Source of the DNA: Saccopteryx bilineata
Taxonomy: Eukaryota > Chordata > Mammalia > Chiroptera > Emballonuridae
DNA length: 64,000 nucleotides
Direction: 5' to 3'
NCBI RefSeq assembly: GCF_036850765.1
Contig: NC_089491.1
Coordinates: 187,901,520 to 187,965,519 of the forward strand
Shown here: one piece after another, positions 12,801 to 15,941 of the stretch
How positions within the stretch are numbered: the stretch's first letter is position 1
How the letters are laid out: each line of letters begins with the position of its first letter
Notes under the pieces: generated by a model
What the model saw: only the letters and a program-made list of their open reading frames with translations
What the model was told of the DNA's origin: nothing
The model's database searches: none
Program-made: the position numbers and the translations under genes

Positions 12801-12905
12801 CACTGGGAACAAAATTTTTGTTGCATCCACAAAAACACTTGTTCTTACCTAATTTGAGTGTGCTGATTTCAAATCTGACATTTAGTTTTTCTCTGTAAGC
12901 TACAG
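12801..12905 (+). repeat. Left terminal inverted repeat of the transposon
   Basis: Begins CACTGGGAACAAAATTTTTG, then TTGCATCC, and contains CTGATTTCAAATCTGACATT at 12,863. The last block matches the right-end copy (reverse strand, from about 15,047) at about 23 of 28 positions. The intermediate stretch aligns with gaps, notably a longer T run in the right copy. Confidence 0.78.
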
Positions 12906-13082
12906 TTTTTTTTCAATTCAAGATTTTAGGTTTTTATCTTATTGTAAAATTTTCAACACTTAGTTTACCATAATGAAGTAGAATGTCTTCTTGGGCATCA
13001 TATTTGTGAAAATATAATAATTTATATAATGCAGTAAATACACTAAAAGATATGATTGCATCAGAATTTGTCTACAATTTCT

Positions 13083-13417
13083 TTCCTTTTTTTTTTTTTT
13101 TTTACAAAGAGAGAGAGAGTGAGAGATAAACATGAACAGAGAGACAGGAGTGGTGAGAGAGATGAGAAGCATCAATCATCAGTTTTTTGTTATGACACCT
13201 TAGTTGTTCATTGATTGCTTTCTCATATGTGCCTTGACTGTGGGCCTTCAGCAGACTGAGTAACCACTTGTTCAAGCCAGTGACCTTGGGTCCAAACTAG
13301 TGAGCTTTTGCTCAAACCAGATGAGCCCGCGCTCAAGCTGGCAACCTCGGGTTCTTGAACCTGGGTCTTCCGCATCCTAGTCCAACACTCTATCCACTGC
13401 GCCACCACCCAGTCAGG
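13083..13417 (-). mobile_element. SINE-C inserted inside the transposon
   Basis: The minus strand begins 'GCCTGACTGGGTGGTGGCGC', has B box 'GGTTCAAGAACCC' and the repeated 'GGCTTGA' region, and ends in a CT tract and an 18-base A tail (T run at 13,087-13,104). The duplication CTACAATTTCT is at 13,072-13,082 and 13,418-13,428. The transposon copy must be older than this SINE insertion. Confidence 0.95.
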
Positions 13418-13489
13418 CTACAATTTCTAAGTAGAACGTATTAAAACACTTATTTTAATCATAAAATTTTGCATAAAACTCATTTAAAT

Positions 13490-14790
13490 TCTATTCAGGT
13501 AAAAATTTGCATTTGTAGTTCTTGCGTCTGTGTACTTGTTGAGGACAATCTCATTAGATGCTCATCACTAACAGCTCCAAGATTTTCGGGAAACTTATCA
13601 AGATGACTGTTCAGGAAATGAATCTTAATGCTCATGTTACATCCAATGTCACAGAAAGCCAACAGCATCCTTTGAACCAGAAGTTCATAGTTTTCTGCTT
13701 TTTTGTTGCCAGGGAACTTCTTTGTAACTGCCACAAAAGACTGCCATGCTGCTTTCTCCTCCTTATTCATCTTCCTGGCAAATTCTTCATCACGTTTGAG
13801 GGTTCGAATTTGAGGTCCATCGAATACACCTGCTTTTATCTTCTCAAAAAACAAGGCAGGAAAAGCAGAAATAATATGTTGAAAGCATTCACTTTCTCTA
13901 TTCAAAGCCTGAACAAACTGCTTCATTAAGCCAAGTTTGATGTGAAGTGGGGAAAAAATAATCCTGTCTTAATTAACTACAGGTTAGTTACAATATTTTG
14001 CATCCCTACCTCTAGAGCTTCATGTTTCGGCAACTCCTTCTGTGTCCAGTGTTTCTCCCAAGCTCAGCTGTCCCTCAAACACAGAAAACAAGGATACTTC
14101 GTGAAACCTCTCTGTTGTCCTAGCAGGAAATTTACCATTTTAAGATCCACACAAATGATTCAGTTATGCTCCTCATACTTCAGAAAGTCGAAGACAATTT
14201 TTATGTCGTTCTTATTAAGTCATTCAATTCGGGTTGGCTAAACTGCTGAGGGGTTAATGACTGCTTGGTATCAGAAGAAGACCTTTCAGATTCTACAACC
14301 ATTTCCTCATGCATCTTATCAAAATACACTTGATCACCATGTTCACTTTCTTCATCCTTAGAATAAATAAAACCATTGAAAACTGGAACCGGGAGTGTCT
14401 CAGAGTGTGGGATAGATTGTATTGCTGAAGGAATATTAGGATATGCAATCATATGCTGTTTTTTCTTGCTGATGCCCTTTGTATGGATCAGACAGAAATA
14501 ACAGTCCCTGCTGTGGTCCTTAGGTTCACGCCAAACCATGGGAATACCAAAAGGCATTCCTTTGCGTTTTCCTTTTGTCCAGTCATGAAGCATTTCCTCA
14601 CAATTATGACACACAGTATGAGTAGCCCAATTCTTGTCTTGATCACCAAGGGGAACTTGAAAATATGCAATATATGCACGTGTCACAAATGATGAAATAT
14701 TGCGCCTTTGACGTTAAAGTGTGTAATAGCCACATATATAACAGAAGTGTCAGGACTATTCTTACATTTACGCCTACTTGAAGAAGCCAT
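13490..14790 (-). pseudogene. Transposase-like coding region, broken by stops and frameshifts
   Basis: The start is taken as the ATG at 14,790-14,788 ('MASSSRRKCKNSPD'), because its first residues fit the family. A frameshift leads into the longest block (14,686-14,201), with 'GDQDKNWATHTVCHNCEEML', 'KGKRKGMPFGIPMVWREPKD', 'DCYFC' and 'YPNIPSAIQSIPHSETLPVP'. The paired CxxC motifs (CHNC, CYFC) suggest zinc binding. After another shift, about 14,210-13,930 gives 'CVDLKMVNFLLGQQ' and 'GFTKYPCFLC' with four in-frame stops. The last block (13,926-13,495) has 'AGVFDGPQIRTLKRDEEF' and 'FLNSHLDKFPENLGAVSDE'. As I remember it, the family has roughly 100 more residues between the first and second blocks, so an internal deletion is likely. 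The C-terminus departs from the family after 'SDE'. A DDE-type transposase is my inference. Its conserved Asp in CVDLK and acidic residues in SDE are visible, but a first catalytic Asp is not, perhaps lost with the deletion. Confidence 0.75.
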
Positions 14791-15002
14791 GATTCAATCT
14801 TAAAACAAAATAAGAGGGTGTTTTTTATCAGAGAATAATTTATTACATTTAAAAACAACTACAATTGTGTAAAAGTGATGTTTGTAAAACATTAATTGCC
14901 TTGTGGTTATGTTCAATCCAAGAGTCGTTGCCCTTTAACTCCAATTTAAAAACCAATGCATGCAATTAACTGTAACAAAAAGAAATTAAAATTGCATAAA
15001 AA

Positions 15003-15121
15003 CTAGAGCCTTCACCAAAAAATGGATTTCAGATTTGGAATCAGTGATGCAGAAATATATAGAAACAGTTCTAAAACCTCATGCAACAGAAAATGAAAAA
15101 AAAAAAAATTGTTCCCCAGTG
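15003..15121 (-). repeat. Right terminal inverted repeat of the transposon
   Basis: Read on the minus strand from 15,121 it begins CACTGGGGAACAATTTTTTT, includes TCTGTTGCATGAGG, then CTGATTCCAAATCTGAAATC, and ends near GGCTCTAG at about 15,003. It is longer than the left copy mainly through a T run and small insertions. Confidence 0.78.
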
Positions 15122-15786: not shown

Positions 15787-15941
15787 TGTGACCTGTGGTG
15801 GTACAGTGGATAAAATGTTGACCTGGAATGCTGAGGTCGCAGGTTTGAAACCCTGGGTTTGGGAGTTGATGCTTCCTGCTCCTCCCATCTCCTTGTCTTT
15901 CTCTCTCTCTCTTTCTCCTCTCTAAAATGATTTTTTTAAAG
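15787..15941 (+). mobile_element. SINE-B, short copy
   Basis: The plus strand reads 'TGACCTGTGGTGGTACAGTGG' (a decayed A-box region), 'GAGGTCGCAGGTTTGAAACC' (B box), 'GGGAGTTGATGCTTCCTGC' and a CT tract with an A-rich end. The central 'CAAGGCACATA' segment is deleted compared with the copies at 0.9 and 47.1 kb. Confidence 0.9.

Follow-up and report, generated by a model that had tools for sequence, protein, structure and literature searches.

In PMC4079192, Chapaev and Chapaev3 transposons are characterized by CAC...GTG ends, duplication of a TWA target (W being A or T) lying between A and T, a DDE transposase, and the motifs C(2)C, LH and H(4)H. Described there are Merrow and Garfield, Chapaev3 elements of lampreys, fish, insects and a bracovirus, and Conan (Chapaev3-1_ET) of the tenrec, a mammalian Chapaev3 whose arrival is ascribed to horizontal transfer and dated to 26-36 Ma (million years ago). 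DNA transposon transfer into bats is known from vespertilionids, according to PMC4298943 and PMC4971623; neither a Chapaev3 element in a mammal (PMC4079192) nor the transfer of a DNA transposon into bats (PMC4298943) is in itself new. Here we describe a copy occupying positions 12801-15121 of a 64,000-nucleotide stretch of DNA (the window; C2:187901520-187965519) in the 2.61-Gb assembly of the emballonurid bat Saccopteryx bilineata. The element is a non-autonomous member of the known Chapaev3 kind (CMC group), and we are highly confident that it is a dead, doubly deleted copy whose family entered an ancestor of Saccopteryx by horizontal transfer.

All the hallmarks that PMC4079192 states for Chapaev and Chapaev3 are found in the bat family. 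So far as likeness to Merrow and Garfield can be judged from their descriptions in that source, the family shares with them the CAC...GTG ends, the TWA target between A and T, the DDE triad, the C(2)C/LH/H(4)H motifs and the presence of internally deleted derivatives, and its relatives, like Merrow and Garfield, appear to have undergone repeated horizontal transfer. Full copies are of similar size (~2.3-2.45 kb there, ~2.4 kb in the bat), and transposase length is 556-562 amino acids (aa) for Merrow and Garfield against about 572 aa for the bat element. The host differs, and so does the exon number: Merrow and Garfield have two exons, whereas the bat element, like most other Chapaev3, has one. 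Conan, likewise compared by its description in that source, is a Chapaev3 of a different mammalian order with 88 copies, counted by other criteria than the ~2,600 probe matches obtained in the bat. Kenshin of Myotis davidii and Buster2 of Nycticeius humeralis, as presented in PMC4298943, were likewise acquired horizontally by bats and exist mostly as non-autonomous copies; they differ from the bat Chapaev3 in superfamily (piggyBac and hAT), in their ends and in their bat genera.

The limits of the copy follow from alignment with the family consensus, which is 94.1% identical to the window over 12801-13081 and 95.0% over 13418-15121, on either side of a nested short interspersed element (SINE). 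They coincide exactly with those of a DNA transposon proposed in a preliminary description of the window made from its letters alone. The copy has ends of the CACTGGG(G)AACA type: the left outer end of the terminal inverted repeat, CACTGGGAACAA, lies at 12801-12812 and the right outer end, TTGTTCCCCAGTG, at 15109-15121 (from the sequence and the inverted-end alignment), and the termini, CACTGGG...CCCCAGTG, are of the CAC...GTG type. The inversion of the ends, reported as long in the preliminary description, is marginal when this copy is taken alone (local score 120.5, against 115.5 for the best of 100 shuffles) and clear in the consensus (123, against at most 83 in 200 shuffles). The transposase gene, on the minus strand, is a pseudogene in which the protein blocks quoted in that description are indeed present.

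From 10,538 first-look candidates, 40 were taken for scoring, among them the window copy; the 39 others show ~90-93% identity in the main piece. The 39 copies, fetched with their flanks, were aligned with the window copy, and the 40 rows yield a consensus element of 1,995 bp ending in CACTGGGGAACAA...TTGTTCCCCAGTG, with termini, CACTGGGG...CCCCAGTG, of the CAC...GTG type. The median Kimura two-parameter (K2P) distance of the 40 rows from this consensus is 4.0%, or 3.0% without CpG sites. At a substitution rate of 2.2e-9 per site and year this would correspond, very roughly, to 14-18 million years; the true spread of divergence may be wider, since the copies most similar to the window copy were the ones scored.

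Target sites were read in a set of 72 rows, comprising the window copy and loci L009-L079; 60 of these allowed the placing of both ends, and the other 12 were dropped. An exact 3-bp duplication borders 30 of the 60 copies. It is TTA in 15, TAA in 14 and AAA in one, so that 29 of the 30 are of the TWA type, and it is preceded by A in 23 cases and followed by T in 28. When the pairing of flanks was shuffled, the number of such duplications averaged 12.7 and reached at most 22 of 60.

The C-terminal block of the window copy matches 847 of 857 candidate proteins at E<=0.001; for the joined consensus product the matches number 2,626 out of 3,739 candidates, and 120 of them were listed. From these 120, 65 relatives were aligned and numbered according to P0122. 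In all 65, D281, D335 and E530 are invariant, a D-D-E triad in which we would place the catalytic residues; C354, C357, L402, H403 and H516 are likewise invariant, and conservation at H511 is 90% or higher. The motifs C(2)C, LH and H(4)H are placed in this order, after the second D and before the E, in the 65 relatives and in the family consensus, and can still be made out, in broken frames, in the window copy, which has lost the first D of the triad. Searches of solved structures by sequence gave nothing below E 0.7. The preliminary description had linked this type of protein to arthropods and cnidarians, and the searches bear this out, adding sponges; it had left the family without a name, but the ends, the TWA duplication and the motifs allow the kind to be named as Chapaev3, which PMC4079192 reports in the tenrec.

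Read along the minus strand, the gene begins with an N-terminal block at 14210-14790 (96.0% identity to positions 1-579 of the consensus of the family's open reading frame, ORF), with a start codon at 14790-14788, Cys-pair motifs and the blocks GDQDKNW, MVWREPKD and CYFC; a frameshift and stops fall near 14700-14750. At 14207-14210 lies the junction of a 325-bp deletion that has removed ~108 codons, including the first invariant Asp. The core follows at 13559-14207 (95.8% to ORF consensus 907-1556) and retains invariant columns: the second Asp in CVDLK (14135-14153), PCFLC for C(2)C, PLH for LH, HFLNSH for H(4)H, and FPENLGAVSDE, with frame changes near 13970-13990. A second junction, at 13559-13563, corresponds to a 76-bp deletion that, on our reading of the aligned sequences, is 16 bp larger in this copy, and beyond it an out-of-frame remnant of the C-terminal tail occupies 13491-13563 (91.8% to ORF consensus 1644-1716). 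The pseudogene seen in the preliminary description has been shaped by more than decay: it carries, besides frameshifts, stops and the further 16-bp loss, two deletions that are common to many copies.

Relative to the full-length ORF consensus, two stretches are missing from the 1,995-bp element: 325 bp (ORF positions ~580-904), and with them the first invariant Asp, and 76 bp after the SDEQ codons, a stretch bordered on both sides by GCAG. To count the two states at each site we probed the genome with 30-base patterns, allowing up to 3 mismatches; backward-pattern controls gave 0 each time. At the 325-bp site there were 1,033 matches for the deletion junction and 1,455 for the intact segment, and at the 76-bp site 2,488 and 156, respectively, so that ~94% of countable places at the second site (2,488 of 2,644) are without the 76 bp. 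The preliminary description had suggested looking for many bat copies and building a consensus from them; both have now been obtained. Among the 40 aligned short copies, both junctions can be recognized in 38 (up to 5 mismatches). The remaining two, L034 and the window copy, have the 325-bp junction alone; in the window copy this reflects the greater size of the second deletion. Each deletion puts the gene out of frame, suggesting that the deleted forms were moved by transposase made elsewhere; the amplified forms are non-autonomous. With its countable junctions, this nested series illustrates clearly how non-autonomous copies can outnumber their parent.

Longer copies were drawn from 65 loci scored in a protein search of the genome, and 32 of them were compared (12 returned by that search and 20 fetched): 20 have the 325-bp segment together with the 76-bp deletion, seven have both segments, and five have the first segment and neither state at the second site. 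Two of the 65 loci, both on the minus strand, deserve particular mention. L048 (C4:45178095-45179789) is 98% identical to the Saccopteryx leptura protein model P0121 and has a single TAG; L049 (C4:288233833-288235521; 93%) has an open frame of 572 codons with no stop, and we do not call it active because of changes at conserved positions. L077 has no stop in its matched part (44-523) and carries the 76-bp deletion. The absence of frameshifts from L048 and L049 was given no weight, since selection by single-frame protein hits favours copies without them. In L044-L047, L059, L069, L073 and L075 the C-terminal region is rearranged, the segment near the 76-bp deletion being duplicated or accompanied by extra sequence; these copies may represent further subfamilies.

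Most of the listed protein matches carry no species name. Among those that do, in both searches, the only mammal is S. leptura, and the others are two frogs, a worm lizard, Hydra, a stick insect, a firefly, a crab, a pseudoscorpion, a glass sponge and a leech; one further listed match, from a bacterial metagenome bin, is probably mislabelled animal DNA. Identity to the family ORF consensus is 95.6% for the S. leptura protein, 86.6% for a protein of the frog Eleutherodactylus coqui (over 246 aa), 74% for that of the stick insect Bacillus rossius, 62% for that of the frog Ranitomeya, and 57% for those of Hydra and the firefly. In a tree of 59 proteins (quick maximum-likelihood search, with support from the Shimodaira-Hasegawa-like approximate likelihood ratio test, SH-aLRT), the bats join E. 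coqui at 100 and then the stick insect at 98, inside a 26-row clade (100) that also holds the crab and the glass sponge; Ranitomeya falls in another clade. Such conflict between the transposase tree and the relationships of the hosts fits repeated horizontal transfer, and it indicates that the family was probably acquired horizontally by the bat lineage, as the preliminary description had proposed. That description counted closest relatives in insects among the signs that would support transfer; the nearest named relative is the frog, with the stick insect next, an order that does not point to an insect donor. E. coqui and Saccopteryx both live in tropical America, so a shared regional source can be tested. 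In a scan of IMG/VR viral contigs based on the 65-protein alignment, 77 pattern matches yielded no relative by tblastn; the scan used only two short peptide patterns, and a viral vector may have escaped it. The tree also pairs the Chapaev3-like protein of the worm lizard (Rhineura) with a Hydra protein at a support of 100 (P0196, P0208), an association that could reflect a separate horizontal transfer.

The class and the route of entry can each be read otherwise. An origin in another superfamily with CAC-like ends (piggyBac-like Kenshin, Transib, hAT or CACTA) is, in our judgement, very improbable. The target duplication is TTAA for piggyBac, 5 bp for Transib and 8 bp for hAT, and exact repeats of 1, 2, 4, 5, 6 and 8 bp occur in only 21, 8, 1, 0, 1 and 0 of the 60 copies, against 30 with a 3-bp repeat, nearly always TWA. 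The order of C(2)C, LH and H(4)H together with the D-D-E triad fits the Chapaev description, and the CACTGGGG ends also speak against the rivals. In favour of Kenshin, its copies in M. davidii have CACTAG(A) ends, and intact Kenshin transposases, from a twisted-wing parasite and a bee, have 584 and 581 aa (PMC4298943). We nevertheless rejected piggyBac, given the single exact 4-bp repeat, the prevalence of TWA and the differing ends, and likewise Transib and hAT, which differ in their ends and whose repeat lengths are absent. Equally improbable is vertical inheritance from an early vertebrate followed by loss elsewhere, with no horizontal transfer at all. With relatives present in frogs and a lizard besides the bat, a patchy, old distribution is conceivable, but by established reasoning vertical descent shared by amphibians and mammals is not expected to leave transposons as similar as those of the bat and E. 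coqui, the more so when Ranitomeya and Hydra are so much further off, the lizard sequence groups with that of Hydra, and divergence within the bat genome is only ~4%. Several observations do weigh against a horizontally acquired Chapaev3. The tree was built by a quick search, its only branch support is SH-aLRT, and just 42% of its columns are filled in the E. coqui row; the evidence for transfer is conflict in a protein-level tree; the superfamily name is drawn from hallmarks, and a Pfam scan of the window pieces and the relatives gave nothing above cut-offs; half of the 60 copies with both ends have no target-site duplication, and the window copy itself has none (GTA against ATT).

A different question is raised by L048 and not by the window copy. 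The S. leptura model P0121 (681 aa, 'isoform X4') consists of a full transposase (residues 1-563) followed by DLGAP5-derived sequence, the tail being 95% identical (98 of 103 residues) to residues 678-780 of S. bilineata DLGAP5. The S. bilineata genome has DLGAP5 proper at C4:44978262-45021371 (+) and, at C4:45167570-45176029 (-), a partial copy of its 3' exons in inverted orientation; the two exons found in this copy are 87% identical to DLGAP5 in protein, and one exon with its flanks differs from DLGAP5 in DNA at 14 of 360 bases. L048, a full-length Chapaev3 copy, stands just upstream of the duplicate on the same strand. An AGC-to-AGG change private to its ORF provides a predicted splice donor (AAGAG|GTACAA), a DLGAP5-type exon 0.7 kb downstream begins after TTTTTTCCAG|GAGCAGC, and joining the two in phase gives K-R-S-S-I-V-E-D, which is the junction present in P0121. 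Fusion with DLGAP5 itself was considered as the origin of P0121 and rejected, the partner being the inverted partial duplicate: the residues SEI, NRK, NNM and VFQ are common to the P0121 tail and the S. bilineata duplicate and are not those of DLGAP5. On the basis of these shared residues we take the two loci to be orthologous and the insertion to be older than the split between the species. The fusion ORF is intact in the S. leptura model; in S. bilineata it is interrupted by an in-frame TAG at codon 105.

In host-transposase fusion genes, a transposase exon is spliced to host exons through a new splice site. The arrangement of L048 and P0121 is proposed to be alike, and differs in that the partner is a partial duplicate, the transposase part lies upstream, and one of the two species has a stop. 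That the Chapaev3 transposase was captured into a new gene with DLGAP5 (HURP)-type C-terminal exons, intact in S. leptura and stop-bearing in S. bilineata, is a tentative suggestion that we consider more doubtful than probable, and its domestication, with the fusion under selection in Saccopteryx, we think unlikely, though compatible with horizontal acquisition of the family. The P0121 fusion and the in-phase junction of the private donor with the DLGAP5-type acceptor speak for domestication, as does the tally of private changes in L048, 17 non-synonymous (one of them a stop) to 12 synonymous against 935:303 in 30 other rows (Fisher p=0.049), which becomes 35:23 when L049 is included (p=0.013). 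The signal is weak, and partly biased by the choice of copies through single-frame protein hits: L049 alone gives 18:11 (p=0.12), amino-acid changes between the species number 13 of 564 in the transposase part and 5 of 103 in the tail (p=0.18), and changes that arose before the transposon lost its activity would lower the ratio too. The TAG likewise counts against it, as do altered conserved transposase residues in L048 (FPEYLG, GECFHQ), and the P0121 model may be a prediction chain. Possibly the S. leptura fusion is expressed and under constraint; if the capture is genuine, the birth of a gene could be seen with one sister species keeping the fusion and the other losing it. The pairing of L048 with the DLGAP5 duplicate provides a case in which to test how a transposase begins to join a host gene.

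Horizontal acquisition of the family, taken with its deleted forms, suggests the following history. A Chapaev3 element of ~2.4 kb, encoding a single-exon DDE transposase of ~570 aa, would have been transferred into an ancestor of Saccopteryx bats, where the enzyme would have cut at the CAC...GTG ends and inserted the element at ATWAT, duplicating TWA. Derivatives without the 76 bp, and others also without the 325 bp, would have been mobilized in trans by the full-length element, giving rise to the bulk of the ~2,600 countable copies; activity would then have ceased, the copies drifting by ~4%, and the window copy would later have received its SINE. Bats are said, in a 2023 paper in Molecular Biology and Evolution, to be a hotspot of transfer. 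A burst of ~2,600 countable Chapaev3 copies in an emballonurid would extend the vespertilionid record of DNA transposon transfer by one bat family and one transposon superfamily, and Saccopteryx would add a mammalian lineage to the tenrec case; no paper joining Chapaev and a bat genome was found in the literature searched.

The nested SINE, a tRNA-type element of 336 bp on the minus strand at 13082-13417, which we take to be Ves-like, is flanked by a 10-bp target-site duplication, CTACAATTTC, at 13072-13081 and 13418-13427. It is absent from the consensus and, at this site, from all 39 other scored copies, and is therefore younger than the transposon; SINE-like matches are found in 2 of these 39, at other points and in the opposite orientation. 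The preliminary description, in giving the unit 2.3 kb, had its extent right and missed the SINE, without which the transposon proper measures ~1.99 kb. A second SINE, seemingly of the same tRNA type, lies on the plus strand at 15790-15915, ~0.7 kb beyond the transposon, and an inverted match between 13342-13408 and 15795-15861 links the two.

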